Source of the DNA: Hypomesus transpacificus
Taxonomy: Eukaryota > Chordata > Actinopteri > Osmeriformes > Osmeridae
Direction: 5' to 3'
Assembly (NCBI RefSeq): GCF_021917145.1
Contig: NC_061081.1
Span: 2,572,058-2,636,057 of the forward strand
DNA length: 64,000 bases
Under the pieces are notes generated by a model. It was not told the origin of the DNA, made no database searches, and was given only the letters and a program-made list of their open reading frames with translations. Positions 33,481 to 64,000 of this stretch are shown here, in pieces (positions within the stretch are counted from its first letter, which is position 1; every line of letters begins with the position of its first letter). Both the position numbers and the translations under genes were made by a program.

Positions 33481-34458
33481 GTGAGTAACGCCAGATGATA
33501 GGGGAAAATAATTGTTGAAAGGTCGGGTGTCCATGAAGAAGACCATCAGCTAATGTCCTACACTTATTTGGTAAGTACTCATCTGCTTGATACTCATTTA
33601 CAAGCGCAAATCATGGTAACCGCGTTTTGTGCGACATACAGGAGTAGCTAGTCGGCTGAATTGTGTAGCCAGTCAGCTAGCAAACTAGCTGAGCAAGCTT
33701 ACTAGGGATGTAGAGTTGCTGCATCCCTAGTTGAAATTACATTAAGGCATTTCTCACAACAGTGGGAATGCCTCTAGTGCCGTGTTAGTTCTGCCGAAGG
33801 AGAAAGCATTCCTATCTGTATTATATTTATTTTCAATGGCACTCGTGATTTTATTGCACTGTCTCCCCACCCCCACCTCAATATAGAACAATAGGTTAGA
33901 CCTGAGCACAGCCCACGGGAAATTCAAGCTATCCTTCGAGGTTGCCTGTAAAAAGAATTATCAAGAGTTACCGATATTACTATTCATTTTGCTGTTCGAT
34001 AAAGATAGAATCCATTCGCATCCATTCGCCAAGGAAGTCTAGCGGTACTCTACCACACTAAGTAGTGTGAGCATGTGGGTGAATGATGTGGCAATGATTC
34101 ATTCTACATGCTGTAGGCCAAAGTTCAGGCTTGCAATTCTGGACTGAGATAAACTGAACTGTTGGGAGACACCAGAGAGTTTACTAGGCTCATATACACT
34201 GTCCTGTATATATTCAGTTTGATTATGGAAGGGTTGTCATCATATGCTATTCAGATTGAATCTTGTTTCCGCAGATGTAACCATTTGGGCTGAAAGGAGA
34301 GTGGCAGACTGATGATGTGTGAACAAGAGAAGAACTGACCTGTCTGGCTGTCTTGTTACCACACCCATTTGGAAAACACTCTCTCCACCCGCTTTCCTTT
34401 CCCCTCCATCCATCCTTCCCTTCCCCCCTCCGCCCCTTCGTCTCTGTCCAGTGCAGTC
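33480..34458 (+). other. dolk 5' non-coding exon and first intron
   Basis: A consensus donor TTTG|GTAAGTACTC at 33570/33571 ends a short upstream exon. A long pyrimidine tract ending TCTCTGTCCAG at about 34452 lies directly before the coding start and is the likely acceptor; an alternative acceptor TTTCCGCAG is at about 34274. No other element was recognised in the intron. Confidence 0.55.
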
Positions 34459-36030
34459 ATGCAGACCAACCCAGTGCTGGTGGAGTCTGCCGTAGTCTTT
34501 TCCATGGTGCTGTGCGTCCACACGGCCCTGTGGAACCAGCACTCCTGGTGCTGTGTGGCCCTGGTCATCCAGGCCTTCTACGTCCAGCACAAGTGGGACC
34601 GCCTGCTCAAAAACGGCGGCGCCGTCTTCCAGTTCCGCCCGTCGGCCAACAGCGGCATCGTGCCGGCCTGCATGGTGATGCCCTTGCTGGGGCTGGTGCT
34701 GAAGGAGAGATGCGCCGCCTCGGGGAACGTCTACTTTGAGCGCTTCTGCATGGTGGTGACCGTCACGGGCATGATGCTGGCGCTCTTCCTGTCTCTGATC
34801 GCGCTGGGGATCACGCGGCCGGTGCCCACCAACACCTGCGTGATCGCGGGCGTGGCGAGCAGCGCCATCCTCTACACCACCAAGCAGACCCTGACGGTGT
34901 CCGAGGTCATCGAGGTGCTGGAGGTCCTGCTGATCTTCGTGTACCTCAGCCTGATCGTCCTGTACCTGCTGCCGCGCTGCTTCACGCCGGGCGAGGCCCT
35001 GCTCATCATGGGCGCCGTCAGCTTCATCATCAACCAGCTGATCAAGCGCTCGCTCAACCTGGCCGAGGCCAAGGGCGACCCGGTGAACTACTTCCTGCCC
35101 GTGGTGGTGGTGGGCTCGCTGCTGCTGGGGGTGTTCTTCGCCCTGCTCTTCTGCTTCATGGAGTCGGAGACCTGGGTGTCGTCTCTCTTCTTTCACATGA
35201 TGACGGCCGTGCTGGCCCTGGGGATCCTCATGCCCTGGCTGTCGCTGCTCATCCGCAGGCATCCCATAATGTGGCTGCTGGACTTTGTCACGTTCAACGA
35301 CAAGAGACTCTGCCTGCTGGCGTACTGGGCCTTCCTCGGGGTGGTGGCCACGTGCGTGGTGCTCCACCAGAACTACCAGCGCACTTCGGGCTCCAAGAAG
35401 CACCAGGCGTCCACCGTGGTGCGGAAGTATTTCCACCTCATAGTGGTGGCGACGTTCGTCCCCGGGCTGGTGTACGACCGGCAGCTGCTCCACGTGGCGT
35501 CCGTGGGCTGCCTGGGGGCCTTCCTCCTGCTGGAGTACGTGAGGTACTTCCGTATCCGTCCCCTCGGCCAACCCCTCAGGCAACTGCTCACCTTGTTTCT
35601 GGACGAGCGCGACTCCGGGCCCCTCATCCTCACTCACGTCTACCTGCTGGTGGGGATGTCCCTGCCCATCTGGCTGTTCCCGGGCCCCTGCTCCCCCAAG
35701 GGCGTCCTCCCCGGGGCCGGAGGCCTGGTGCCCTACGCTGGGGTGCTGGCGGTGGGCGTGGGGGATACGGTGGCGTCTGTGTTCGGCAGCACCATGGGGG
35801 AGATCCGCTGGCCCGGCACCAAGAAAACCATGGAGGGCACGGCCACCTCCGTGTTCGCCCAGATCATCGCCGTGGCGATGTTCCTCATCTTTGATGGGAC
35901 CATCAACCTGAACTCCAGCTACTCCTGGATTGTGGGCTCCATCACTCTGGTGGCCATGCTGGAGGCCTACACCTCCCAGATAGACAACCTGCTCCTTCCC
36001 CTCTACCTCTTCATCCTCCTCCTGCTCTGA
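34459..36030 (+). CDS. dolk: Dolichol kinase
   Basis: CTP-dependent phosphorylation of dolichol, the last step giving dolichyl phosphate, the lipid carrier for N-glycosylation, O- and C-mannosylation and GPI anchors; it acts in the ER membrane. A single uninterrupted coding exon gives 523 residues (human is about 538), very hydrophobic with a dozen or more membrane segments. The CTP-binding signature lies at about residues 431-460: [12 protein letters not shown], then [35 protein letters not shown] at about residues 314-333 and [12 protein letters not shown] at the C-terminus also match. The start at 34459 ([10 protein letters not shown]) aligns with the conserved N-terminus and follows a likely acceptor. 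An in-frame ATG at 34369 would add 30 Pro/Ser-rich residues encoded by the pyrimidine tract and is less likely. Single-exon coding is also the mammalian arrangement. Confidence 0.97.
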
Positions 36031-37850
36031 CCTGGCCAATCAGAGCACACTCAGCCACACTGGTGGCCTATCGGAGGCCAGCAGGGGTGGGAAGGTGAGG
36101 GGTCAGAGTGGAAGTGGGACAAATCCCAATACAGGGAAGCAGCTGTAGTTCCAAGAGCAATGCAGGAGATCAGGACATCATTCAACATGGGGGGAGGGCC
36201 TATGTTGTGAAGAAGTGAAGGTACGATATCATTGGTATTAATGCTGCAAAGATAATCTTCACATTTACTTGACTGTGTGGAAGAAATCACCATGGCTGTC
36301 ACATGATAAGGCTTAACTATCTGAGATCTGATAACTGAGCTTTGGTCATCTTTAGCTTGCATAAATGAATGATGAGATGTAACTCATATGGTTGGCTGGT
36401 AGCCACTCCAATGTCCTCTACTGTTCTGCAGAGGTACTGTAAGCATGACGGTAGAACCGGTTGGATTCAAATACTAGCTAAGTTTCAATGTCTACACTTC
36501 CTTTTTGTTATATTTCCAGTATCCTGAGTAAGGATGCAGGAAGGGAGGGTGTGTGAGAGAGAGAAAGAGAAAAGGGATACAAACATGTGTTGTTTGCGTT
36601 GTACACAGCTATGTATTGTAGTGGAAGGTACCGACACGCTGAACCCCTTGGAACTAACCCCCCCTCTTGAAGCCCATAATCACAGGAGTTTCAGATGAAC
36701 AGACGCGGCTGAAGGATATGTTTCTATAATGTGTGTGATTTGTTTTGTTATTTAATATCTCTTTTTTTTGGCTTAGGGAAGAAGGCCTACAACTTGGTAC
36801 AGCCTTTTGAAGAACATGATCATTTAAGCAAGCTTGTTGAGTCAGATGGAAGTAATATATTGTATTTTGCCTTTTCTTGTTGTGGCAATATATTAAAGAC
36901 TGACTGCTGGACTTGTATTCGCCTTAAAGATGTATATTTTGTATTAGTCATTACCTAGTACTGTGGATAGTGTAGGATAGGACAGCTGAAAGCATGGTCG
37001 GTTTTCAGAAGATGATCTCTGTGGGCGGGTCCAGACTTCTGTAAGACAATACTCTTAAGCATGACTTTATAATGTGAAATCCTTAACTGTAACTTGTATA
37101 CAAAAAATACCCTACAGTATATTTTTTGTTGAACTGAAATCTTTTTAGGTCGACTCTTTGGTCATTGTGACCTCTCATTAATGACATACATTTTCTTGAT
37201 TCTTATGCTTACTTATTTGTATATGAAAAGAATAAACGGGGCTCCCGATTGGTTTTGAATTGGATTTTGACACAATAATAGGTCCATTTTCCCTGTGTTT
37301 TAGGCTTTAATGTAAAACGTATTTATCATTACCACATTAACTAAAATAACTTGACTAGGCTAATACTGAAATTAGCACTCACATTAAATGCACTCACATT
37401 AAATGTAACACTTTGAACTAACCACTCCTCCATCATTGTAGTCATGGCAATACATTGGATTTGGAATCTCAAGCCCTCCCCCAGTTTGCAGTGCATTCCT
37501 GAGAATGTTTAAAACGATGTATGTTGTCACAACTTTTCAATGTTTATTATCAGCATGGAACCAATACATTATTTGATTTCTGTAATTAATTTAAGTGGTA
37601 CTTTTTCCAATACAAACTGCTAATTTATGATATTTTGTTCAAAGTATGATTTTTTTGGGCCATATGTTTTTATCACTGCTCTTGACTGTCTGGAAACACT
37701 GGTATTGCATGGTAGATAAGCATCAATAAAGGCCTCTTCTGTTACCTCCTCTGTCCTCCTTCTCTCCTCTGAGTCTCAGGACACACTGTGGAAGGAGCAA
37801 CTATCATCTGACAACACAGGTTATGTAGGACAGACATTCAACTCTGTTAT

Positions 37851-44654: not shown

Positions 44655-47600
44655 TCAGACCTGATCAGCCTTGTCGGCCCTCCACAGCTGCTCCTTGACC
44701 TCCATGGGCAGGGTGTTGAACAGGTCCTCCTCCACCACCAGGCTGCTCTTCTTCAGCAGCCGGCACTCGCCCAGCTCCACGGGGAGGCACTCCAGACGGT
44801 TCCCCCGGAGCTCCAGCTGGGTCAGGCCCGTCAGCTCCCCGAAGCGGGACGGCAGGGTCTGCAGGCAGTTGCTCCCCAGGTTCAGGGTGCGGAGTTTCTT
44901 GCACTGGAACAGCTCCGGAGGAAGGGATTCAATCTGAGGGGCAGAGACGAGAACAGACAAGTAGAAGAAAGTCGAGTTCAAGTGAATTATGAGTTATGTT
45001 ACACAACACTGGATTCAAAGGAAAAACAGTACTTCCTCTTTTGTCATAAACAAAGTGTTGTACTCCATAGTGAGATCAATCATTTGATTTATTTTCTAAA
45101 TCATGACTGTTGCTAACAAACCTGTGGTGCTTTGGGTCCAGCAGTATCATAATAAAAAATAATGTTTTTCTATTGTTTAGAGGGGGTTGAAAGGTGTGTT
45201 TGGCATAGACTTTTTTGCTGACATAGTTGTGCACCACAGACTGGCAACAGCACATGGGGGGGGGGGATGGGAGGGTGGAACATACTGTTCCCACTATCTT
45301 TACCCAATCAGACAACAAACTTAGCTCCCTTAACCAATGATGGAGTAGCCAAAGATTCTGTCCAGAGGCAGAAAAGCCAATCAAAGGCTGGCGTTACACT
45401 CAAAGTTCAGTGTCATGTTTTAAACACGAACAGGAAACAGTCATATAAAACCAGATATGATACTACAAGGCCTTATCATAGAACTAGTTAACTACATCGA
45501 AATTGTACCATTCCATATCGAAGTATGAACAGTATAATGAACAGAAAGGACCATTGTTAAGACACAATAGCAAATTAAATAAAATGATTCAAGAAATTAA
45601 GCCAATTACAATTCCAAACAACTGGCTCAATAGAGAACCTTATATTAGACGTCGTCGTCGTCGTCGTCATCTGCCGCTTGTCCGGGGATCGGGTCGCGGG
45701 GGCAGCGACCTAAGCAGGGAGGCCCAGACTTCCCTCCCCCCGGCCACTTCCGCCAGCTCTTCCTGGGGGACCCCAAGGCGTTCCCAGGCCAGCTGAGAGA
45801 CATAGTCCCTCCAGCGTGTCCTGGGTCTTCCCCGGGGCCTCTTCCCAGTGGGACGTGCCCGGAACACCTCACCAGGGAGGCGTCCAGGAGGCATCCTAAT
45901 CAGATGCCCGAGCCACCTCAGCTGGCTCCTCTCGACGCGGAGGAGCAGCGGTTCTACTCTGAGCCCCTCCCGGATGACCGAGCTTCTCACCCTATCTCTA
46001 AGGGAGAGCCCGGACACCCTACGGAGAAAGCTCATTTCGGCCGCTTGTATTCGCGATCTCGTTCTTTCGGTCACTACCCATAGTTCGTGACCATAGGTGA
46101 GGGTAGGAACGTAGATCGACTGGTAAATAGAGAGCTTCGCCTTTCGACTCAGCTCCTTCTTCACCACGACGGACCGATGCAGAGCCCGCATCACTGCGGA
46201 CGCCGCACCGATCCGCCTGTCGACCTCGCGCTCCATTCTTCCCTCACTCGTGAACAAGACCCCGAGATACTTGAACTCCTCCGCTTGGTTCAGGATCTCC
46301 TCCCCGACCCGGAGATGGCACTCCACCCTTTTCCGGTCGATTACCATGGCCTCAGATTTGGAGGTGCTGATTCGCATCCCAGCCGCTTCACATTCGGTTG
46401 CGAACCGCTCCAGTGAGAGCTGAAGGTCACGGCCCGATGAAGCCAACAGGACCACATCATCCGCAAAAAGCAGCGACCCGATCCTGAGGTCACCAAACCG
46501 GACCCCCTCAACACCCTGGCTGCGCCTAGAAATTCTGTCCATATAGGTAATGAACAGAATCGGTGACATAGGGCAGCCCTGGCGGAGTCCAACCCTCACC
46601 GGAAACAAGTTCGACTTACTACCGGCAATGCGGACCAAACTCTGGCACCGGTCGTACAGGGACCGGACAGCCCCGATCAGGAAATCCGGTACCCCGTACT
46701 CTCGGAGCACCCCCCACATGAGCCCCCGAGGGACACGGTCGAACGCCTTTTCCAAATCCACAAAACATGTGTAGACTGGTTGGGCGAACTCCCATGTACC
46801 CTCCAGGACTCCGCGGAGGGTATAAAGCTGGTCCACTGTTCCACGGCCAGGACGAAAACCACATTGCTCCTCCTGAATCCGAGGTTCGACAATCCGACGG
46901 ACCCTCCTCTCCAGGACCCCTGAATAGACTTTCCCAGGGAGGCTGAGGAGTGTGATCCCCCTAAAGTTGGAGCACACCCTCCGGTCCCCCTTTTTAAAGA
47001 GGGGAACCACCACCCCGGTCTGCCAGTCCAGAGGCACTGTCCCCGATGTCCACGCGATGTTGCAGAGTCGCGTCAACCAAGACAGCCCTACAACATCCAG
47101 AGCCTTAAGGAACTCCGGGCGGACCTCATCCACCCCAGGGGCCCTGCCACCGCGGAGCTTTTCAACCACCTCGGCGACCTCAGCCCCAGAGATAGAAGGG
47201 CCCCCCCCGATGTCCCCAGACTCTGCCTCCACGTCGGAAAGCGTGTTGGTGGAATTAAGGAGGTCTTCGAAGTATTCCTTCCACCGATCCAGGACGTCCC
47301 CCGTCGAGGTCAGCAGCGCACCATCCCCACCGTATACAGTGTTGACAGAGCACTGCTTCCCCCTCCTGAGCCGCCGGATGGTGGTCCAGAACCTTTTTGA
47401 AGCCGTTCGGAAGTCATTCTCCATGGCCTCGCCGAACTCCTCCCATGCCCGGGTTTTTGCCTCCGCGACCGCCAAAGCCGCGTTCCGCTTGGCCTGCCGG
47501 TACACATCAGCTGCCTCTGGAGTCCTACCAGCCAATAAAGTCCGATAGGCCTCCTTCTTCAGCTTGACGGCATCCCTCACCTCCGGAGTCCACCACCGGG

Positions 47601-50600
47601 TCCGAGGGTTACCGCCGCGACATGCACCGACCGCCCTGCGGCCGCAGCTCCGGTCAGCCGCTTCAACAATGGAGGCCCGGAACATGGCCCATTCGGACTC
47701 AATGTCCCCGGCCCCCCCCGAGACATGATCGAAGCTCTCCCGGAGGTGGGAGTTGAAGCTCCTTCTGACAGAGGGTTCCGCCAGACGTTCCCAGCAGACC
47801 CTCACATTACGTTTGGGCCTGCCAGGCCTGACCGGCGTCCTCCCCCACCATCGAAGCCAACTCACCACCAGGTGGTGATCAGTTGACAGCTCCGCCCCTC
47901 TCCTCACCCGAGTGTCCAAGACATGCGGCCCCAAGTCCGATGACACGACTACAAAGTCGATGGCGAGCGCCTGGTGGCCGGGCCTTTTCCCATGGGGCCC
48001 GGTCGGGCATAGCCCGAAGAGACAACGTGGGACCCTCTTCCAGTGTATTAGACCATGCATTTTAAATCACATTATTCCACTTTTTTTACCGTTGCTTTCT
48101 ACAGATGGATCAAATGTGTCCAGCTAAAAGACTGTTTCTGGTTACGAGTCAATCTGAACACAGCGTTTACTGATGATTACACATCCCATTTGGGTTGCTA
48201 ATGTGCTACTGGCATAGTATAGGAGAGGGTTGCAGAAACCCAGAACACACCAAGGAGGCCTAGTAAACAAGGCTATTCTGGGACGCATACCGCTCTTCCA
48301 AAAGCCCAATTCTCAGTGTGGTGCCACACACAGGTACGCTGAAAAACAATATTAATAGCTTCTTTAACAGGAACCACATGACTGCACCCAAACACACGCA
48401 TGCACATTTAAAAAGTGGGCTGGGTCCAATTTAAAACACTATATTAATAGCTCTTTTGACTGGAGCCATATGATCCCAAACACACGTGCACACAAACAGC
48501 TAAAGGACGGTTGTATAACTTGATGGTTGGCAGGGTTGTGCATGTTTATGACTGGAAATCAAATTCCTTGATAAACTTGACGAGTCAGCTATATTCAGTG
48601 GTATAGATACAGCGCAAGTGATGCACACGTTACAGTACAGTTGGCGGGGTCAAAAACACGAGAGAGCGTGTCTTCTGACTGACTGGTCGAGAAGAATGCT
48701 TGGATCTGTCCCGAACAACCACGCAGAACCCTTGGTCCTCTAATCCTTGCATTTTCATGCTTCATAACATTTCCAGAATTCACATTTCAGCCAGTGAAGA
48801 ATTTCCTCAAGTCACATTTCAGCCAATGAGGAATGTCCTCAAGTCACATTTCAGCCAGTGAAGAATGTCCTCAAGTCCTCACCTATATTAGTTACCCCGT
48901 GGCCTTCTTACCAGACCTGGGGAATGATATGATGTAAGATGAACTCTTCCTGAGGTGTCATCTACAGGAGCCCCGCTCCCCCCGCCCCCAAGCCATCTGC
49001 TCAGCACAGTGGGTAGACAAGTGTGAAGGAGGAGTATTGAGATAGAGGTTTGCTATGTGCAAAGACTAAAGAGTTCATTCCAAACTTTCTATCTACCATA
49101 TGGCAAATTGGAATCCTGCAAGCTTACCGAGTCTGTTTCACTCCATGTGTCAGTCTGATTTGTATCGTATGGACAAGCATTTGGTTTAGTATTAGAGACT
49201 GGCCAATTGGAGTGCTTTGTTATGCTCTATGGTTGTTCTAACTATGTGATATAACTGTTGCTAAGCAAACCTTTGGTTTAAGTCATGTGATTTGTTGTTC
49301 TAATCGATGGATTGATTGAATTGTGGGTGATTTAATTTGGTCATTTATATCAGACCATTTGGTGTCAACCTGAGAGATTCCGTAGAGCAAATAAAGTGAA
49401 ACAAGGAGCGTAGGGATTTTTCTGGTTCAATAGGTAAGCCTAAAAAATCTATTGTATAAAGTATACTGAAATACTTTCCCTTGCTTTCTAAGTCAACCAA
49501 CAGTCTTGAGCTTTGCTGTGACAGAGTGATTGTGGTAGAAAACATTTGCCTGCTCCATCACTCCATGGAGACAGAAGCTCTTATGTAGAGCCAGAAGCGT
49601 GACAGGGACATTAGCGAAACAGTAACTCCTCTGTCTCCATCAAGGAATACATTAGTTTAACTGCACACACACACACCATTGTATCAGTCCACTATTCATA
49701 AAAAAATAATATGACTTTTCAATCAAGTACACAAATGACTTGTTAAAATAATACTTTTAACACATCTTCATGTAATGACTCCATCAAAGGTTCTTGGGAG
49801 GCCAAACCTCTGGCCCTTTAACTGGAATGAGTAAAGCACAAACCAGTCAGAAAGGCCCCCTTTTCATCCCATGGCTGCTCTCAAACCTGTCTCCATGCTA
49901 ATGATAAGCCCTACCCTCATGTTACCCACTACGACCTTTGAGCGTGCTCAGACATGAAAAAGTTGAAAGGAGGTGGAATAAAGGAAGAGAAATAAGTAGG
50001 AAGCAGAACAGTTAGGCCTAACAGACAAATACACACATCCCTGTTCTTGGGTTCTTACCCGGTTGGCGGTCACAGCAAAATACTGCAGGTTCTGTAGAAA
50101 GCCCACATCGGCATGGATGCTGGTCAGATTGTTGTGGCTGAGGTCCAGGAAGCGCAGTTTACGGCAGTAGAATAGCTGGCTAGGGATCTTCTCGATCTTA
50201 TTCCTGTTCAGATATAGCCTCTCCAGGTTGGTCAGCGTGCCAATCTGGATGGGGATATAGGCGATCTGGTTGTACCAGAGCTTAAGGCAGACCAGCCGGT
50301 GGAGGTGCTGGAAACTGATGATCTCCTCGATGGTCTTCAGATTGTTGTCCTTCAGGTCGATCTCCTGCAGGTTGTGGAGGCTGAAGATGGAGTGGGGGAT
50401 GCGTTCGAGGTCGCAGCGCATCAGCTCCAGCTCCGTCAGGTTCACCATCTTCTTCAGGCTGTTGAGGACCATCAGCTTGGTGCCCTCGTTGTTGATGGAC
50501 AGCTTCTGGAGGTGGACACCCACGTCGGTCACCACCTGGGGGAGCTTGGTGAGGTTGCTCTTCAGGCGGAGGACCTTGAGCCTCTTGAGCTCCCGTAGGC

Positions 50601-52164
50601 CGTCAATGACGATGAAGCGGTTGTTGTCTGCGCTCAGGTTCCCCGTCAGGTGCAGCTCACTGAGGGTCTTCAGGCTGTAAATCCACAGGGGGATCTCCTT
50701 GATGTCCGTGAACTTGATGTGGAGGGACCTGAGGTTCTCCCGGAGGAAGGCCAAAGCCGGGGCCTCGATTTTGGCCGGTGTGTGGTAGAGCCACATCTCC
50801 CTCAGACTGGCCAGCTGGGCGATGATGGGGGGGATGGTGACGTCCGGGATGAGCTCCAGCTTCAGGACCTCCAGCTCCAGCAGGTCGAAGACCGTGTCCG
50901 GGATCCCGCTGAGCATGAAGAGGTGCAGCTCCAGCTTCTCCTGGGAGTTCTTGGTGATCCTCTGCCTCAGCTTCTCGAGGGTCCACTCGTTGTTGAGGTT
51001 CAGCTGCCTCAGTTTGTTCTCGCTCACCTCGGACAGGAAGACCGCGAAGCGCTTGGAGTAGAGCGGGTCGTACTGGTCGATCATGTGCAGCATGAAGGCA
51101 AAGTCGTTCTTCACGTCGGGGATGTCGCTGTAGCTGCTCTCCTCGCGGATCGACTCGAAGGAGTAGCGTTTTAGGGAACGGGTGACCATCCAGCAGAGTG
51201 TGTACATGCAGATGAGGCCATACACCCCTACCAAGCTGATGTAGAAGCAGGCCAGGATCTTGAAGAGGGTAGCTAGTGGGTGGGCACAGTGGTACATTCG
51301 GTATCCTGTCAGCCTCTCAATGTCTACCTGACAGGGGACGCTAAATTTGATGTAGCGCACGTAGTAGGCCGTGTAGCAGATGATCAGTATGAATTTGATG
51401 ACTTTGATGATAGTCTGGCGGATGTAGAGTCTGTAGACTATGTCACCTTCCTCCACATGGATTCGGAACTTCTTGACCTTCTCAAAGAGAGCCTTGGCCT
51501 GCTCCCCTTCCTTCTTGTCCAGGACGCCGGTCTCGGAGCGGTCGACGATGCCCTGCTCAAGGCGGGACTTGGTCCTCTGGAGCATGGGCACGCTCGCCTC
51601 CACGTCCTCGCACAGGGAGGACGCCTTCTTGTCCGTGGAGCCGTTCATCTTCCCCAGCGGCTTGGGGTCGCTCTCCTCCACCACCGTCTCCGACAGGGCC
51701 CTCGTGGTCCAGGGAGAGTCGAAGCACTTCAGCAGGATGGAAACGAAATGCTCCAGCTTGGAACTCGTCCTGGGGAACTTGAACCAGAAGTTACTGCAGG
51801 CCAGGAAAATTAAGGTGTGGAGGAGGACCAGGTAAGGAAAGTACTTGGCGAACCAGTGCAGCTTGTTCTCGTAGCAGACCGCGTCGACATAGTTGTACTG
51901 GTGCCGGTCGAGGTCGTACTGGATGCCTTTGGGCTCCGAGGAGATGGGGATGGTGGCGTTGGCGTCGTTGCAGGATTGACCGACCACCCACTTGCACGGC
52001 AGGCAGATCATCTTGTCCTGGGTGACCTGCAGCGTGCCCCCGAACACGGCGATCATGAGCATGACGACGGAGATGTAGTCGGTGAAGACGTCCCACCATG
52101 GCTTTAGGATGCGGTACGCCGGCTGAGTATCGGCAAAGTACCGGAGCTCGGTGATAGGGATCAT
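44655..52164 (-). CDS. lrrc8a: Volume-regulated anion channel subunit LRRC8A (SWELL1)
   Basis: Obligatory subunit of the hexameric, swelling-activated chloride and organic osmolyte channel in the plasma membrane. Two coding exons: 50059-52164 (702 codons, phase 0) and 44655-44933 (92 residues), total 794 residues against 810 in human. The N-terminus MIPITELRYFADTQPAYRIL is nearly invariant. Four membrane segments occupy about residues 22-330, followed by about 16 leucine-rich repeats to the C-terminus, ending WRADKADQV. The cysteines of ICLPC and AVCYEN in the first extracellular loop are conserved, but that loop is about 14-16 residues shorter than in human, which accounts for the length difference. 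The donor at 50058 and acceptor at 44934 join VTANR to IESLPPELF exactly as in other vertebrates. The intervening 5.1-kb intron contains a LINE. Fish may carry two copies of this gene; which one this is cannot be told here. Confidence 0.97.
45651..48045 (-). mobile_element. 5'-truncated non-LTR retrotransposon (LINE) with 8-bp target duplication
   Basis: The insertion is bounded by the direct repeat TATTAGAC at 45643-45650 and 48046-48053. Its 3' end (minus strand) is a short GAC-repeat tail (45651-45670) rather than poly-A, as in RTE-like and some Rex-like elements. The 5' end is cut inside the endonuclease domain. It lies in the 5.1-kb coding intron of lrrc8a, in the same orientation as the gene. 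The reverse transcriptase frame is intact (see the CDS entry), so the insertion is probably recent. The clade was not resolved. Confidence 0.92.
45667..48060 (-). CDS. LINE reverse transcriptase polyprotein, N-terminally truncated
   Basis: A 797-codon open frame. Its first five codons come from host flanking DNA, because the element begins at 48045. The start of the frame keeps only the end of the apurinic endonuclease domain (the IDFVVVSSD...STDHHLVVSW segment). The reverse transcriptase follows: FKKGDRRVCSNFRGITLLS, CGFRPGRGTVDQLY, CFVDLEKAFDRVPR (first catalytic Asp), RQGCPMSPILF and the FADDVVLLAS catalytic box. The C-terminal region has LTYGHELWVVTERTRSRIQA and RPRGRPRTRWRDY, typical of a family very common in teleosts. 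With the endonuclease mostly missing this copy cannot retrotranspose on its own by the usual route. Confidence 0.93.
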   Translation of the reverse strand: MHGLIHWKRVPRCLFGLCPTGPHGKRPGHQALAIDFVVVSSDLGPHVLDTRVRRGAELSTDHHLVVSWLRWWGRTPVRPGRPKRNVRVCWERLAEPSVRRSFNSHLRESFDHVSGGAGDIESEWAMFRASIVEAADRSCGRRAVGACRGGNPRTRWWTPEVRDAVKLKKEAYRTLLAGRTPEAADVYRQAKRNAALAVAEAKTRAWEEFGEAMENDFRTASKRFWTTIRRLRRGKQCSVNTVYGGDGALLTSTGDVLDRWKEYFEDLLNSTNTLSDVEAESGDIGGGPSISGAEVAEVVEKLRGGRAPGVDEVRPEFLKALDVVGLSWLTRLCNIAWTSGTVPLDWQTGVVVPLFKKGDRRVCSNFRGITLLSLPGKVYSGVLERRVRRIVEPRIQEEQCGFRPGRGTVDQLYTLRGVLEGTWEFAQPVYTCFVDLEKAFDRVPRGLMWGVLREYGVPDFLIGAVRSLYDRCQSLVRIAGSKSNLFPVRVGLRQGCPMSPILFITYMDRISRRSQGVEGVRFGDLRIGSLLFADDVVLLASSGRDLQLSLERFATECEAAGMRISTSKSEAMVIDRKRVECHLRVGEEILNQAEEFKYLGVLFTSEGRMEREVDRRIGAASAVMRALHRSVVVKKELSRKAKLSIYQSIYVPTLTYGHELWVVTERTRSRIQAAEMSFLRRVSGLSLRDRVRSSVIREGLRVEPLLLRVERSQLRWLGHLIRMPPGRLPGEVFRARPTGKRPRGRPRTRWRDYVSQLAWERLGVPQEELAEVAGGREVWASLLRSLPPRPDPRTSGR
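48054..50058 (-). other. lrrc8a intron, upstream part
   Basis: Intronic DNA between the LINE insertion and the donor of lrrc8a coding exon 1. It holds a 32-bp tandem repeat at 48781-48876. No other recognisable element or exon was seen. Confidence 0.6.
48781..48876 (+). repeat. 32-bp tandem repeat, three copies
   Basis: Copies at 48781-48812, 48813-48844 and 48845-48876, each beginning CACATTTCAGCCA and ending CCTCAAGT, with one to four differences between copies. It lies in the lrrc8a intron. Confidence 0.9.
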
Positions 52165-52174
52165 GATGGTTTAC

Positions 52175-55100: not shown

Positions 55101-57789
55101 ACTATTCCTATTAGAGTACAACACATGAGCTTCTGGTTCATTTACTCTGGACAAATATACCCGTTGCCTTGGACCTTTGTATTGGGATGAATATTTCTGC
55201 TAAGTTACAAAAATGTCCATGTTGAAATGTAGATAGTATATATGTAGTAGTACACCAAAAGATGCCAACTCCCCCTATCTGCCTGCCTGCCTCGGTCTGT
55301 CCATCCACCTGCCCCTTCCCCCCTCCCCATTACTGAGGCATCAGACACTGTCTTAACTTCCCCTCAGAAACATCTGACAGACTGTCTCTTGGGAAACCCT
55401 CTCCTAGGTGTTTACTATAGCAAAGACTGTGGGCTCTCTGCTACACTGTTCTGTCCTGTACGTCTGAAAAAGAGGGACCTGGCCACAACTGCTGTTTATT
55501 TATGTAGGTAATTTAGTAGGTGGATTAAAGTAACCTGATCACGCCCAGGAACAGAGTGGCTTTTGTGGGATGGTAGGGGGCATTGACAGGATCTTAGAGG
55601 GGGAACATATCATTTTGGCTATCGAGGAGCACAAATGATACCCACCATGATAGCTACAGTAAATGTCTCAACAACCCTCAACTCTAATTATCTTCAGCTT
55701 AGTCAGTCCTCTCTCCAGCTACGTATAGCCGGTTCCAGAGTCAGCTGCCCCCATCTTTCTTGACTAATGACGACTTTCCACTGAATGCAATACATACCGT
55801 CCTCCATAGCAACACTACCAGCTCCAAGTCTATCTTGTATACAGAGCACAACCAACCAACCTCTAACCCCTATCTCGGTCCAGGTAGAGTTCATCCACCT
55901 GGAGACAAAGCTGCCATTGTCCAGGCACAGCCTTCGTCCAGGTGTAGTGAGCGGGAGGGGGAGACAGAGAGAGGCCAGGGGCATTGAACACACAGACAGA
56001 GCCAAACTACTGCTGAACCAAGGACTATTCTACCAAGGATGACATTGGCGTATTACAGTACGACACAGGCCAACAAGTCAGAGATGGCGGTTGGACTATG
56101 TCTTCCTCTTTTCAAACATGTTTTTCTATCTGTTTCTGTGATGCAGATAGTTACCACAAAGAATCAGACTCAGAAAAAGCACTGTATTTAGTCTAGCGGG
56201 TTACCATGACATCAAGAACACACACACCCCTACAACCTGTTCCATGTCTAGCCAGTGAGCCAGTGACACAGTTACATAACAGAAGCATCTCCATCTTCTA
56301 GCCCAAACCCGCCCACCCCCCACTCATCATACTGGTACATACTTGTCCACTGACGCACACACTAATAAATAACCATGCAAGTGTAGGAGCTCATTATGCC
56401 TACACCCCCCCTCCCCCCCCAGGAAGGACCAGCCCTGTGGATGTATTATCTGGACAACACAATAGCCTGCAAAGAATATAGGCTATGTGACAAAAGTTAA
56501 TAACAGTTAACTTCAAAAGCAGCGCTTACTTTCATGAGATGAAGACATCGAATTGTGTAGCCCAAGGGTGGCGGCAGGATTCAGTTCCAACACGTCTTAA
56601 AAATCCAACTACGAGTCTGTATTTGAGAGAATTCTCAAAAGTCATCCAGCGGTTTATAGAAATTATGGGCTGGCAAAGCTGTCGGCTACAAGAGGCCACT
56701 GACACATACTGTCTTGAGTCCAGTATAGACCCAATTCTTCTGCGTGTAGGTTTATAATTTGGCCTACGATTACGACGACAACCTATATCTTGTCGTTGCT
56801 GCCAGAAAAAAACTAACCTATTCATTAGCTTCATCTTATTTAAACACAAACACGACTGTACGAGTCTGGTGTGGCGTTCTGCCAATCACTTTTAAGACAC
56901 GACAGAACAGTAGCGTAATGCATCGGCTAATGCACGCCGGCTGGTTATGGCACGTGTGCGGCTTCAGTACAATTTATTGTTGATAACGAAGCACCCCAAG
57001 TTAACGTGCTATGTAAACATATTAATATCTGTGTTATCGCTTATTTACGATTCATTTAACTAACATCTTACAGTCAGGTTCTTTAGCAGAGCTTCCCAAC
57101 AGCACCCAATCAACACCTCAGTGACGGGAAGCGATGTCATATTATACAGCCAATCTCTCATTCAAATACAGCAACAGTACCACCAACTACCGTGTACAGA
57201 CAACTTACCTAATTTGTAGCAGGTACTGTCTTTCTCCTCTCCCGCATGTAATTGATACATTTCTTAAGATTTTCAAAGACGGACAACGTTCACCACCCGT
57301 GCCACGGTGGAAAAACTCTGAGGGAACAGGCGTCTCCACCCAGGAAGTTGTGTCACAGAAACATGGGACCATCGCGCTCCAATGCCTTCACACTGCGTTT
57401 GCACCGAGTGCGTCAGTTTCTAGCAGCACCACTCCTCATACGCCGAGGCAGCTTCAGCTGAAAACCTACAACACTAAGGACACATCTCGATATTGTTGCG
57501 CATAGTGCGTACAGTACTCATAGGTTATGCGTTGCGATAGTGTACAATTGGTTGTAATTATGTTATTCACCAAACCTAAGGGCAACTGTTCAAAACACTA
57601 TGACAAACCCATGAGCAATTGATTATATGATTATAACAAATAGCTGTGTCCTGACTTTATACAGAAAAACAGTGATCACACAAATATATGAGAGCTAAGC
57701 AACAAGTTAGTTGTGTTTGTGAGAGAAAAAAACAATGAAATCATTCTTTATTCATCCAGTACATTCATCCACAGCAACAACAAAAAAAC
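52175..57789. other. lrrc8a 5' region, no protein-coding gene seen
   Basis: An acceptor (CCCTGCAG) at about 52175 shows that lrrc8a has at least one upstream non-coding exon, probably within this 5.6 kb. Candidates are donors followed to the left by exon-like sequence near 53965 (minus GGGGCTATGAG|GTAAGT) and near 56528. Neither was confirmed. The left part is A/T-rich; 54500-54910 contains C-rich runs. No open frame here resembles a known protein. Confidence 0.4.
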
Positions 57790-60700
57790 TTATTTCTGAA
57801 CATTTTCATCATCGATTCTGGAGAGGACATTGACACGCTTTGGCATTGCTATGATGATGTCCACCTCTGCCCTCTTTCTCTTGCCCACGGGCCCCCCAGC
57901 AGGGTGGGGAGAGCCAGCGGTCTGGGCGGCGGCTATCCTATGGGTCTGCGCCTGAAAAACCTCCAGTTTCTGCCTCAGCTCCCGGAGCTGCTCCAAGTCT
58001 CTGATCTTCCTCACGTCCTCCATGACAGACTCCAGTCTGGACTCGCACTCCCTCTGCAGCTCGTCGCGGTCGCTGGCGGCTGGCGTGCTGTCCAGAACCC
58101 TCGCCGCAGACGGGCAAGGCGGAACTGGGGTGGCCGGCGTAAGGAGCAGAACCTGGGAGGAGGCTTGGGCCTGTGGGGTAGCAGGGGACACAACCAGAGG
58201 GGTGGACGGAACGATGACCTCTGGGCCATCCCAGTCCGGGCAGGGATCCAGGGACGCAGGGTCCACGAGCTCCGCGACGGCCCCTTCCACCTCTGAGGGC
58301 TGGGTGGTGTGGAGGGTGAGCAGGGGGTGGTCCCTGTAGAGGGGGCTGAGGCGCTCCCAGCCCCAGTCTGGAAGCAGCCGGAACACCTGGCAGAAGTGTT
58401 CACAGGGCAGGCGCTGACCCGCCCAGTCGTCACAGCCGCACGACGGCAGGCTGCTCTCGGAGCCGAATCGGACCAGGTGCATGTGGCTCTCGCCGTCCTC
58501 AGAGCTGCTCCAGACCCTGAAGATCCCCTCGCCCACCGCCTCCACCTGCGAAAACAGACACTGGACGGCAGACTCCATTTTGTCCATCATCCAGGAAACC
58601 ACCGTTCGGGGCCGGTGCCACAGGAAGGGAGGGATTTTGGGATTGAGGAAGAACTCTCTGGAGGACTGGCTGTTGAGGTTGCTGTATCTGCGGATTAGAG
58701 AATGCAGGAGAGACCGTCTTAGATTAGGATTCATAGTCCCTGATGTATAAGGTTTATAAGCTTTAGACAAAATCTGTACGCAATTAAAATGACACGTTAC
58801 ATAATAACGTTCTCTTGTCCTTTACCAGTAGCATCTGATTGGATAGAATGAACTAACCATATTAGTGTAACATGTAGGAACACGTCAAAGGTTCTGCGGG
58901 CTTCAGAGTTTTGCGAATAGCGTTGCATGTTCGAAGGTTGAGTTAATCTACAGTATAAAACTCACAATTGAATGTCAGAGTTTTTTGTTGTGAGTTGAGC
59001 ATTCTGTGCTCTCGCTCTCTCCCTCTCCTTCTCCTTCTCTCCCTCGAGTGTGTTACTGCTGTGTATACTTTGTGTACAAGTGTTTCGATACACTAGTGTT
59101 ATTTTCGAAATGTCTTCATTCGTGAGGATGAATAAAGTGTCTGTCTGGCAGACAATGGATCCATCCATTGGTACCTCTGGAGCGTCTGAGGGAAAAGGTC
59201 AGTGGCCAGGAAACGCAGGATGTGACTGAGGGAGCTGCTCTTGTGGACGCGGAGCTCCTGGTGGGAGAAGAAGTCCTTCTGAAGCTGCATTCCTCCGTTC
59301 ATGACGGACACCAGGTTCACCTGCTCGGCCCGCGCCACGCTCACCCACCTCTGCCACGGCACACACACACGCACACACACACACACACACACATAGGATG
59401 AAACGTTGTTTAAATGGGCTGGATTTCATGAGCTGTGCAATGTCCGTGACATGATTATGAGTATTGATATTGTGGTATTATTGATGTGTGGAAATATGCC
59501 GTTGGACAAAAACAGTCAATATATGTTGTTATCAATCACCCTCACAGAGAGCAATAACACGTTTCTTTGTCTCAAGTCTGCCTCCTCTCGCGACTGAGGC
59601 CTGGTGCCGCTCAGCGCCAACATGCACAACAAACCTTCTCTTCTGTCAGCCACTTTTTAGAGAACCAGTTCCTGAAGAGAGGTCTCTGTGACCAGATGGA
59701 GCTCTCCTGCAGGTGCCACAGCGCCCTCCTGTGGTCGTCTTTGGTCAGTGCACCAGCAATGGCTTTCATCTTCTCCAACACCTCCGCCTGGTCTGTGACT
59801 CCACGGGCTCGGTTGCCCAGCCACTGGGTCCAAGTCCTCTCCCTCAGGAAGTCGTTGTAGACCGCCAGAGAGCCTGATACAGGAAGCAAAATCATTCGCT
59901 TATATTTAGCAGACGCTCTTATCAAGACCGACTTACATTTACATTTAGTCATTTAGCAGACGCTCTTATCCAGAGCGACTTACAGTAAGTACAGGGACAT
60001 TCCCCACCGAGGCAAGTAGGGTGAAGTGCCTTGCCCAAGGGCACAACGTCGGTTGCCAGGAATCAAACCGGCAACCTTCAGATTAATAGCCCGATTTCCT
60101 AACCGCTCAGCCAGCTACCTGCTGCACACTAGTTACCTGCTGCACACTTGCTCTGACAGTGTAGAGGGGGGGGGGGGTTATTGTAGATCATGAGGACATT
60201 TTCCCACGCCTTTTTACAGTTCTCATTGGGGTTGTGGTTGCTCTGTTTAAGTGCCTTGACTAGACCAACAGAGGGTGTCGCATAGAGTCAACTTCCACAT
60301 CCACTCGAACCTTCCTTTCTACAGAGTAGGCAATAAAGAGAACATTCGTATGACGCAGTGACCGCCTGACCGGCGGGACCCTGCCTGCTCACCGGAGAAC
60401 GCGCCCTCCACAGCCTCCATCTCCACGGGGCAGTCCTCGGTGAGGCAGTACGCGGGGCTCCAGCTCGGACTCCACTGCCTGAACACGCCCAGCGCCTCCT
60501 TCAGCGCCTCGGCGCTCCGGGACTGCACCACGAACATCCCCACGGCCACCACGCTGGCGTTGGTGCGCACGCCCAGGAGGTACAGCGGCAGGGGGAGGCG
60601 CGCCCGCCTGTGGGCGGAGTCCAGGAAGAAGACCTCGCCGCCGTAGAGATGCAGCAGCGCCCGTTGCCACTCGGTCTGGTAGCATAGCAACAGGTTCTGG

Positions 60701-62473
60701 GTCTCCGACTGGGTCCTGAAGAGGTAGCTGGTCTGGGGCGCCTCCTCTTTCCAGCTGTTTGATAGAGACTACAGGGACACACACATGCGCAATTGAGAAA
60801 TGAGATGAATTTCAGTGACTCGGGAGTGAATTAGAGAATGTATAACAACTTATACATGGTTTAGTACAGTGGTAGCAGTTTTACATCACACCACAATAGT
60901 AGCAGTAAGATGTCCTGCCACTGTTATAGCATGTAGTAGTGGTACAGCAGTAATACTAAACTAGTAGTAGCACAGCACAGTACAGTCTTCTCACCACAAG
61001 GTTAGCAAGGTCAATCTTGGTGAAGTTGTCCTCTGTCCGAGTTTGAGTCATGATGTCCCTGATGGTCCTCTGGGTGGGGAAGTACTTCCTGTGTGGAGGG
61101 GCGGCCCCGTCCTTGAACAGCTCCGTCCTCACGTACTTCACCATGTGGACCTTCATGTCCTGCACCCGGGTCACGCCCCGCTTCACCATGGAGCGAATGT
61201 AGTCCCTCACCCGGCCGTCCACGTCGTCCGCCCCCTGGGGGAACGGGAGGAAGGGAAGAACGGGGTGAGCAACTGGGTCATTATTGGGCTTTATCTTGGC
61301 ACATGAGGGGACTGGATTCCCAAAAATCGACACAAAGTGGCATATCTGTCAAATCAAGAATGAATTGACGGTTTTCCGCCATTTGTGATTTAGTGAGGAT
61401 AGTAACGTCTTGTTCTTGAGAGACACGTCGCCGGGTTTACCTTTCCGATAGGGTGGCCCACGTGGTCGGAGATGTTAGGCACTCTTACGTAGTACAGGAT
61501 CTTCCACTCCACTGAGGCTGGGTCCTCCAGGAGCGCATGTCTGATGGCCATGGACTTAGCCTTCTTCTCTCGCACTCTATCCGTATCCAGCTGTTGGAAG
61601 CACACACACGTGCACTCAGACACCCAGCATAGAATATGTAGAATATTAACTAAGTAAAATGTGTTAATTGTCTTATGGTTAGCAACTTAACAGCTTCACT
61701 AAGCAGCTGGTAAATGCTTAACTGAGCATTCCTTTACCTTGAACCCATTAAACTTGGCAATGCGAGTGACTGCTACTTTGGCAGGGCAGGACAACTTCTT
61801 AGTTTGAATCAAGTGAACTCTCTTCCCCTTCTTTCCTTTCCTTGCTTCCATTTCTTCCTTGGTTGCCTGAAATGATGACAGTAGCAGAACGTCATTATTT
61901 TATTTAAGCCAAGAGGAAGCATGTGGCCCTCTCGTTTGTTTACAGACCGCACTATCATCTGTAGTCATGTCGCAGAACGCTGTCTTTTCTGTACCTTCGC
62001 TCTGGCTTCAATGTAACGCTGCTTCTTTGTGCTGTCCTTCTCACGGCCTCGATGGCACCCCATAACCTTCTGGCCGATAAACATAAAAGGAACGCCGTCG
62101 AAAGGGATGCAGGGAGTGTCTTTGCCCTTCAGCCATTCCCAGTACACTTTGTTTTTACTTTGAGGTTTCCAATCTACTGGGAGAAAACAAAGGATTGGAC
62201 TCAAGACAGAGCAAGAGTGGTCTAGCGACCTATCAAACGTAATAACATGACTATATATTCTATAGTTTCTAGCTGCTGCTATTCCCGTCAACAACATTAA
62301 TTAGTTGGCAGACTTAGTTAGCTTTCTGACAACAACGTGCCTTCAGTGAAACCTTTATCCATTGAGTAAACAACATATTTGACAAAAGTTGACTCTTCGA
62401 TTTGGCAGATCCGGTCATTGACCTGTTGTAACGATTCACAGATGAAAATGTTGATAATCTTTAACGGAAACAT
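57790..62473 (-). CDS. MULE-transposase-derived protein with SWIM zinc finger, probably domesticated
   Basis: Nine exons join in phase to an 836-residue protein: 62353-62473, 61995-62176, 61738-61866, 61441-61590, 60995-61234, 60393-60768, 59635-59873, 59175-59350 and 57790-58687. Residues about 41-200 are a basic, Cys/His-containing region (KVYWEWLKGKDTPCIPFDG, GQKVMGCHRG, KLSCPAKV, HVGHPIGK) resembling the DNA-binding part of ALS2CR8/CARF-like proteins. Residues about 285-400 resemble a Mutator-like transposase core, with D324 in VFFLDSAHRR, D386 in CLTEDCPVE and E392 nearby. A SWIM finger, C-x-C-x9-C-x-H, is at C621, C623, C633 and H635. The tail has a coiled coil (about 740-800) and a basic GKRKRAEVD motif near the end. 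Introns, lack of terminal repeats, and a shared promoter with dnlz argue for a host gene rather than a live element. I do not recognise an established name; ZSWIM-type or CARF-like are the nearest descriptions. Confidence 0.75.
59898..60125 (-). mobile_element. tRNA-derived SINE
   Basis: On the minus strand the head reads GTAGCTGGCTGAGCGGTTAG (A-box-like TGGCTGAGCGG, about 60101-60118), then CCGGTTTGATTCC (B-box, 60059-60071), followed by the CACTTCACCCTACTTGCCTC body. The tail GTAAGTCGCTCTGGATAAGA, then GCGTCTGCTAAATG, is very common in fish; a second, diverged copy of the tail follows at 59898-59935. It lies in intron 6 of the SWIM gene, same strand. It is not a functional tRNA gene: only the promoter-bearing half is tRNA-like. 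Confidence 0.85.
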
Positions 62474-62760
62474 TGCAAGCCATCAATTTGTCTACTGCAC
62501 TAGCTAATTGTTTAGCATAGTTTGCGTGCCATACAGGCTAATCATGCAACTTGTGCTCTTCTATTTCTTGCTCAGTCTGTGGAAGGGAACCGGAAATGCT
62601 TTCAATGTTTTGGTGAATTCATTGGCTCATGTGACCAACGACCGCAAACAATTGGAGAGAAACTATTGGTTAAAATAAAATGATGACTATATTTACTAAT
62701 AACGTCATAAAACTGCGACAGAAGCACATTATTTACCTTAAGGTGTCAAATGTTTCAAAG
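62474..62760. promoter_or_regulatory. Bidirectional promoter between the SWIM gene (-) and dnlz (+)
   Basis: Only 287 bases separate the two start codons, which diverge. Two inverted CCAAT boxes (ATTGG near 62621 and 62666) lie nearer dnlz, and no TATA box is obvious. An in-frame ATG pair at 62680-62685 would lengthen dnlz by 27 residues if transcription starts further upstream. Confidence 0.6.
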
Positions 62761-63681
62761 ATGTTACGTTCAAACTCCATGCGGACGCTAAATAGGATAT
62801 TTTGGAATAATCAGGAAATATCAGTCTTATGTTCACGTTTTAGGTCATTGACAGTTAGACGACTGTACTTTCACTCAGCACCTGATGAAATTCTCCAGTT
62901 AAAAATGAGAAGGGCAGCCAGTCCTTTATATCAAGGAGCAGCTGTATCAGCTATCATCGACCAGTGTGGACACGAAGTCGGACACGGACATGCTCTGCGA
63001 AGATATTTCTCAAATACCTCTCTTGTGGGAAGTGATGGAGCCATTGGGAAGATTGAATCAAAACATTATCAATTGGTTTACACATGCAAGGTAATAAATG
63101 ATACTTATCCGGTCAGTTACAGTCTTGAACATCATGAACATCATGATTTTAATGTCACTTCGTTTGCATCCACCCACAGGTGTGCTCGACCAGGTCCACA
63201 AAGCGTATATCCAAGTTGGCCTATCACAAAGGTGTTGTCATAGTGACGTGCCCAGGATGTGAGAACCACCACATAATTGCTGACAACTTGGGATGGTTCT
63301 CAGACCTGGAGGGAAAGAGGTGGGTGGCGAGTCCTCCTAATGCAACACACACCCTGTTCACAGTGATCATGCACACAACTATAATAAACTCATCAGGACT
63401 GTTTTCTGGGAGTTTTTCCTTGTCTTCCTTGAGGGTGGAGGTTGGCTGAGGGGCAGTTCTATCGGCGTATGTGAAGCGAATGTGACATTGCCTGTAAAAA
63501 GAGCTATACAAATACATTTGATTTGATACTGTCTGTCTACGTCAGGAACATTGAGGAGATCCTGGCAGCCAAGGGAGAGGTGGTGAGGAGGATAGAGGGA
63601 GGAGAAGCCTGGGAGATCGTTGCAGAGGAGTCCCTGAAGGAAGGAGGAGGAAAAACTGACACTGACTCTGGGAAATCATAA
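62761..63681 (+). CDS. dnlz: DNL-type zinc finger protein (mitochondrial Hsp70 escort, HEP1/DNLZ)
   Basis: Mitochondrial matrix protein that keeps mtHsp70 (HSPA9) soluble and stimulates it. Three exons, 62761-63090, 63180-63319 and 63546-63681, give 606 bases and 201 residues in consistent phase. The N-terminus ([15 protein letters not shown]) is basic and lacks acids, as a mitochondrial presequence should. The zinc site is complete: C109 and C112 (TCKVC, spanning the first intron) with C134 and C137 (TCPGC). The family signature reads [14 protein letters not shown], containing the DNL triplet. The start at 62761 was preferred because human DNLZ also begins MLR; 62680 is the alternative. AATAAA at 63766-63771 ends a short 3' untranslated region. 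Human DNLZ is at 9q34.3, so linkage with the neighbouring genes is loosely conserved. Confidence 0.95.
63398..63530 (+). mobile_element. LINE-2-like 3' tail fragment
   Basis: The stretch GGGAGTTTTTCCTTGTCTTC, then TTGAGGGTGGAGGTTGG, later AGCTATACAAATACATTTGATT, matches the 3' end of vertebrate and fish L2/Maui LINEs. Only the tail is present, in dnlz intron 2. Confidence 0.7.
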
Positions 63682-63765
63682 GTGTGGGTGTGTGTGTGTG
63701 TGTGTACGACAAGAAGAATGAGAAAGAGTGAGTGAAAATGTTAAAATGTGTTTTAGCTGTAGTGT

Positions 63766-63771
63766 AATAAA
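63766..63771 (+). terminator. Polyadenylation signal of dnlz
   Basis: AATAAA 85 bases after the dnlz stop codon, followed by a T-rich downstream element (GTTATTTTTGATTT). Confidence 0.8.
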
Positions 63772-64000
63772 GTTATTTTTGATTTCTAACTATTTATTTG
63801 TTTCTTCTAAAGAGACACCCAAGTCACCCACTTCAATGACTTATTTGAGCTTTTTTGGGGGGGGGGGCAATGTCAAGCCAGGTAATAACAAGGCCAGATC
63901 GAATCATGTCATTTTTACAGCTGCCATTTTGGAGCTATGCCTTCCTTTTTAGTAGTCATTGTGACAAACTTTTTCCCCCTAATGTATTCTTAAAACTACT
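63772..64000. other. Intergenic DNA to the window end
   Basis: About 230 bases after the dnlz polyadenylation signal. Apart from a short poly-G run near 63860 nothing recognisable was seen. Confidence 0.5.

Follow-up and report, generated by a model that had tools for sequence, protein, structure and literature searches.

A 64,000-nt stretch of the Hypomesus transpacificus genome (contig NC_061081.1, positions 2,572,058 to 2,636,057; hereafter the window) carries a nine-exon gene on its minus strand, from 62473 to 57790, which we read as a host gene probably derived from an old, transposition-dead transposase of the Mutator-like element (MULE)/ZSWIM type and kept as a DNA-binding regulator. 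This reading is supported by the domain matches of the protein, by its open frame, splice sites and codon bias, by its low copy number, by the spacing of two retained acidic residues and by a missing CxxH motif. The N-terminal domain is that of CaRF/ALS2CR8, and the gene is distinct from the CARF gene of the same genome.

Results

Splicing the nine exons gives 2511 nt and a protein of 836 residues with a single terminal stop, which reproduces the in-phase model of an earlier, sequence-only reading of this DNA; all 8 of the 8 introns are GT-AG. All parts of the gene described below lie on the minus strand. Exon 1 (62353..62473, residues 1-41) opens with the start codon at 62473 and splices in phase. 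It has a weak donor (AAG/GTTTCA), no domain and a GC content at third codon positions (GC3) of 0.47, and is the weakest and least certain part of the gene model. The CaRF domain begins in exon 2 (61995..62176, residues 41-101, with C81-x2-G84), continues through exon 3 (61738..61866, residues 102-144, with C128-P-A) and exon 4 (61441..61590, residues 145-194, with H187-x2-H190) and ends in exon 5 (60995..61234, residues 195-274). Exon 6 (60393..60768, residues 275-400) holds both acidic residues, exon 7 (59635..59873, residues 400-479) a helical region without a CxxH motif, exon 8 (59175..59350, residues 480-538) W481 and the expected region of the third acid, and exon 9 (57790..58687) residues 538-836 and the stop. 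Hand-picked splice sites were combined in 32 ways, 16 of which keep the frame open and alter the product by a few residues where exons meet, so that the boundaries of exons 1, 2, 5, 7 and 8 are provisional.

That the gene is coding is indicated by a GC3 of 0.77 overall (0.47-0.93 by exon), compared with an intron GC of 0.44, and by a poly(A) signal, AATAAA (57747..57752; TTTATT on the plus strand), which starts 38 nt past the stop. Together with one Pfam domain ordered through exons 2-5 and a second in exon 6, these features place the gene beyond chance. Hence, despite the doubt over exon 1 and part of the splice choices, a pseudogene or a chance join of unrelated exons is highly improbable, given 836 stop-free codons and domains that keep their order across exons 2-6.

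A Pfam search of the whole protein at E values up to 10, and of shorter pieces of it, returned two matches above their cut-offs. The CaRF/ALS2CR8 DNA-binding domain (PF15299; 61040..62171, introns included; residues 43-259, exons 2-5) matches over positions 2-231 of 235 with E 1.2e-35 and 124 bits against a cut-off of 28.9. The ZSWIM1/3 RNase-H-like domain (PF21056; 60409..60723, residues 290-394, exon 6) is narrowly above its cut-off of 27.2 with 29.2 bits and E 9.6e-7 (E 2.7e-7 in a shorter piece). Within it lie D324 (60619-60621) and D386 (60433-60435), both where the sequence-only reading had placed them, and the RNase-H-like core that it proposed is borne out, as a relative of ZSWIM1/3 and, weakly, of MULE transposases. 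The SWIM finger of that reading is also in place, as an exact C-x-C-x9-C-x-H motif, CGCDDWAGQRLPCEH, at residues 621-635 (58396..58440); a DUF6422 match overlapping its residues (E 0.017) is under the cut-off. Towards the C terminus follow a charged helix, likely a coiled coil, judged by eye at about residues 746-786 (57943..58065), and GKRKR, a nuclear-localisation-like sequence at residues 806-810 (57871..57885). The predicted layout is thus CaRF domain, RNase-H core, SWIM, helix and basic tail. A search of PDB sequences with the protein gave two chance matches only (E 1.5).

Of the FAR1-MULE-SWIM layout claimed earlier, the order of DNA-binding domain, core and SWIM may hold, in that PF15299, PF21056 and the SWIM motif follow one another, with the Pfam MULE and SWIM models under their cut-offs; the FAR1 label is not supported, since the N-terminal domain is PF15299. 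Membership of the FAR1/FHY3 family is rejected: no Pfam FAR1 domain was found in the protein at E up to 10. If the gene were the fish counterpart, by orthology, of one of mammalian ZSWIM1, ZSWIM3 and ZSWIM9, this would explain the PF21056 match, a domain named after ZSWIM1/3. However, the best domain of the protein is that of CaRF, which is not known from any ZSWIM gene, its neighbours (DNLZ and a papain-family protease) have no known ZSWIM link, and we consider such orthology distinctly unlikely. Besides PF21056, no other ZSWIM-named Pfam domain was found at E up to 10.

The RNase-H core is read as inactive on the basis of its motifs. Muta1 has the triad D214, D283 and E419, and its transposition needed H307 of the CxxH motif, W401 (18 residues before E419) and each DDE residue, according to the available text of the report (PMC5225508). 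In the nine-exon protein, 61 residues separate D324 and D386, and the spacing between first and second D is 60-76 in 11 of 12 arthropod MULE families in the part of that survey available to us (PMC13359780). Between D386 and W481 there is no CxxH motif: C387 adjoins D386 with a Glu three residues on, residues 388-480 lack Cys and the next His is 447. Position W481+18 is Gly499, with D505 and E511 as the first acids beyond it. It is mainly the lack of a CxxH motif, together with Gly499, that points to an inactive core.

We searched 437 Mb of the genome in 376 contigs, and all match counts given here are lower bounds. The 300-residue C-terminal stretch of the protein has at least 1 match. PF15299 has at least 11, of which 4 fall at the nine-exon gene (1 under the cut-off when taken alone), 5 in a gene on C23 and 2 elsewhere (C10, in low complexity, and C1), both under the cut-off. 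Matches above the cut-off thus fall in at least 2 genes, with no third among the matches listed. The C1 match is a CaRF-like fragment (G000:C1:4756008-4756109, minus strand, NGIPFMNKEVKVIGC) with E 0.31, and tblastn found no further exons nearby. PF21056 has at least 4 matches, at least 3 of them above the cut-off (the nine-exon gene, C372 and C21) and a fourth under it that contains a stop. The MULE model PF10551 gave no match in the genome at E 0.1 and also missed the core of the nine-exon gene itself, and its silence is weak evidence. Near-identical copies, which the sequence-only reading had named as the sign of a transposon, are thus absent among the matches listed for the C terminus, PF15299 and PF21056.

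The ends of the gene were examined by a repeat search of 56500-64000, in which 25 of 30 inverted pairs were inspected; no long inverted repeat occurs among those 25. Of the short imperfect pairs, two enclose the gene (57309/63399, 21 nt, 81%; 56619/63001, 17 nt, 82%), and a third lies just within the coding ends (57794/62441, 17 nt, 88%). We set them aside as transposon ends because their right arms fall in DNLZ or exon 1 and the outer two pairs cross. A gene for the transposase of a MULE transposon that is still alive or died recently would fit the transposase-type core with two acids retained, and more short inverted pairs join the two flanks than in shuffles. Nevertheless, with no near-identical copies among the matches listed, no long inverted repeat among the inspected pairs, eight introns and no CxxH motif, we give this explanation almost no credence, and a living transposon is rejected on the copy searches and the repeat search.

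The C23 gene (C23:6990132-6991261) has FAM117 exons adjoining it, and as human CARF lies near FAM117B we take it to be CARF. Local alignment of its CaRF domain with that of the nine-exon gene scores 129, compared with a shuffle mean of 47.3 (s.d. 7.8), and 0 of 500 shuffles reach this score, so the two domains are homologous. When the four domain introns of CARF are aligned to the nine-exon protein they fall at residues 75, 131, 176 and 226. The introns of the nine-exon gene in the aligned region follow residues 101, 144, 194 and 274, so that none of the four coincides (distances of 26, 13, 18 and 32 residues); the CARF exon ends behind this comparison were taken from homology, to whole codons, and one expected donor lacks GT. 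That donor belongs to the first domain exon of CARF (2170-2240 of the extracted CARF region, minus strand), which is followed by AGGACC, either an odd splice site or an assembly error.

Paralogues that arise by gene duplication usually retain their introns. As none is held in common here, we favour separate origins of CARF and the nine-exon gene from an intron-poor ancestor, for example a transposase gene, and an independent domestication of the nine-exon gene is plausible. Very old intron turnover is another possible cause of the mismatch. The nine-exon gene as a CARF orthologue is rejected, both on the lack of common introns and on the C23 gene beside FAM117. A CARF duplicate later fused with RNase-H and SWIM parts would account for the clear domain homology, but it is unlikely in view of the introns. 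The similar order of N-terminal motif, RNase-H core and SWIM at the C372 locus is a further hint, namely that the complete layout is the older one, although neither profiles nor alignments support homology of the N termini.

That second MULE/ZSWIM-type locus is found at G000:C372:616000-634900 and G000:C21:8865500-8875400, where the PF21056 stretches are 97.8% identical over 2 kb and the farther flanks differ; this could be the remnant of a vertebrate MULE, either duplicated or mobile. On C372, a 303-residue frame has N-terminal C..G, C.A and H..H motifs and a core with DASYK (PF21056, 27.6 bits, cut-off 27.2), a later piece contains MMDRD, and about 5 kb beyond, a 271-residue frame has the SWIM motif CKCTNFRMGNICKH (Pfam SWIM, 17.1 bits, below the cut-off of 19.6). 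The three pieces may be parts of one gene. Alignment-based kinship of the C372 frame to the nine-exon gene is weak, with 6 of 500 shuffles reaching the score of the core and 10 of 500 that of the whole. For the N termini, 138 of 500 shuffles reach the local alignment score, and when a profile of the CaRF domain (nine-exon gene plus CARF) was compared with that of the C372 N terminus, no support emerged (P 0.33). The N termini of CARF and C372 score at a level reached by 8 of 500 shuffles, a result we discount as the end of CARF pairs with the start of C372. No relative turned up when viral contigs were scanned with the C372 frame and with exon 6.

Residues 41-260 of the nine-exon protein have only three cysteines (C63, C81 and C128). 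Of these, C81 and C128 can form C-x46-C-x58-H-x2-H with H187 and H190, as putative zinc ligands. The order C..G, C.A, H..H recurs in CARF of the same genome (CQYG, CPA, HLYH) and in the C372 frame (CDRG, CKA, HTGH). Among 20000 shuffles it appears 3 times for the nine-exon gene, 8 for CARF and 22 for C372, for a pattern picked after the sequences had been seen. The same order is found in FAR1 and other WRKY-GCM1 fingers, and no profile test links the CaRF domain with FAR1.

DNLZ adjoins the nine-exon gene head to head, and its zf-DNL match (E 2.3e-23) confirms the earlier identification of this housekeeping neighbour as dnlz. The likely start codons of the two divergent genes are separated by 287 bp (62474..62760), a possible two-way promoter. 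Elsewhere in the window are a Tc1-like transposase frame at its edge (3-695, minus), an open frame of 756 residues that lies in a GC-rich segment and has no Pfam match at E 0.001 (2381-4648, plus), and a segment of very strong GC skew (0.565; 24001-26000) with long open frames resembling simple repeats. Long open frames of 599 and 563 residues lie on opposite strands at 34243-36039, where the minus frame and a 384-residue plus frame have no Pfam match at E 0.001. A 799-residue frame with a reverse transcriptase domain is LINE-like (45670-48066, minus), and an LRRC8-type channel gene forms one 740-residue frame (49951-52170, minus).

Discussion

We propose that the protein would act as a sequence-specific transcription regulator, like plant FHY3/FAR1 and neuronal CaRF. 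In favour of such a role, CaRF binds DNA directly, with the consensus YSANAACGAGGC, in the accessible sections of its 2010 study (PMC2877716). The CaRF-type domain of the nine-exon protein, with C81, C128, H187 and H190 as zinc ligands, would read a DNA site as CaRF does, while the RNase-H core, no longer cutting DNA, may serve as a scaffold or as a platform for dimers. A further contact, to DNA or protein, could come from the SWIM finger; two copies could pair through the C-terminal helix, and the basic tail could direct nuclear entry; expression may come from a promoter held in common with DNLZ.

Several observations weigh against a domesticated, catalytically dead MULE/ZSWIM-type regulator. 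The MULE model PF10551 matches the protein only under its cut-off (E 0.024), as does Pfam SWIM (E 0.21 with the full-length sequence and 0.021 with a 98-residue piece). D324 and D386 are both retained, and E511, a possible third acid, follows D386 at a distance of 124 residues, within the 120-135 of eight families in the available part of the arthropod survey (PMC13359780). The three pairs that join the flanks count slightly, as they exceed shuffles in number (mean 0.25; 0 of 300 reach 3), with their best score reached in 28 of 300. DNA binding by the protein is itself a prediction. Sites like the calcium-response element are not enriched in the window: they number 33 compared with 38.9 expected, including a single site, with 2 mismatches, in the putative shared promoter, and another scan gave 37 compared with 51.1 expected and none in that promoter.

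The protein resembles ZSWIM1 and ZSWIM3 in its PF21056 core and SWIM motif and differs from them in its CaRF-type N-terminal domain. With FHY3/FAR1 and the animal FHY3-type proteins it may have in common the layout of a zinc-finger-like DNA-binding domain, a MULE-type core and SWIM, and perhaps a like action, but it lacks the Pfam FAR1 domain. Animal FHY3 genes are reported from a sponge, molluscs, a brachiopod, some arthropods and Branchiostoma and not from human, and SWIM goes unmentioned in the available text of that report (PMC10027918). The Phantom/Muta-type animal MULEs have the RNase-H core, and some animal MULE families carry an N-terminal FLYWCH or C-terminal SWIM finger, as far as the excerpts of two studies go (PMC6446971, PMC5225508). 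In contrast to these elements, the nine-exon gene lacks CxxH, long inverted repeats (in the 25 pairs inspected) and copies (among the matches listed). CaRF/ALS2CR8 (calcium-response factor) has the PF15299 domain with an identical succession of C..G, CPA and H..H, but it lies at another locus, has no domain intron in common with the nine-exon gene and, in the part of the 2010 study at hand, is drawn with an activation domain after the DNA-binding domain (PMC2877716).

In the open literature, covered by titles and the openings of abstracts, a CaRF/ALS2CR8 domain joined with a transposase core or SWIM was not found; subscription journals and databases lie outside this scope, and genes of this kind may already carry a name from automatic annotation. 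ALS2CR8 does appear in a review of transposons and cancer, as a table line on LINE1 silencing in the available text, which is unrelated (PMC5454887).

The same 2010 study, in its available sections, reports no homology of CaRF to known transcription factor families and a single similar gene per species examined, and describes its domain as novel, with a structure that would be of great interest (PMC2877716). The nine-exon gene counters this uniqueness and suggests where the domain came from: in this second gene the CaRF domain is joined to a transposase-type core, and an orphan DNA-binding domain thereby gains a possible source. CaRF may even be a transposase cut short by loss of the RNase-H core, and then no orphan but one of several separate captures of a single transposase lineage, with the nine-exon gene as the sister that kept the full layout; we put this at slightly under an even chance. 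CaRF is not known to have a transposase core. The presence of a MULE/ZSWIM core in a vertebrate host gene also bears on the supposed absence of MULEs from vertebrates, which a 2019 survey, in the text available, doubts are present while asking whether they are truly absent (PMC6446971). If the proposed origin is true, it would hint that CaRF-like regulators began as parts of jumping genes.

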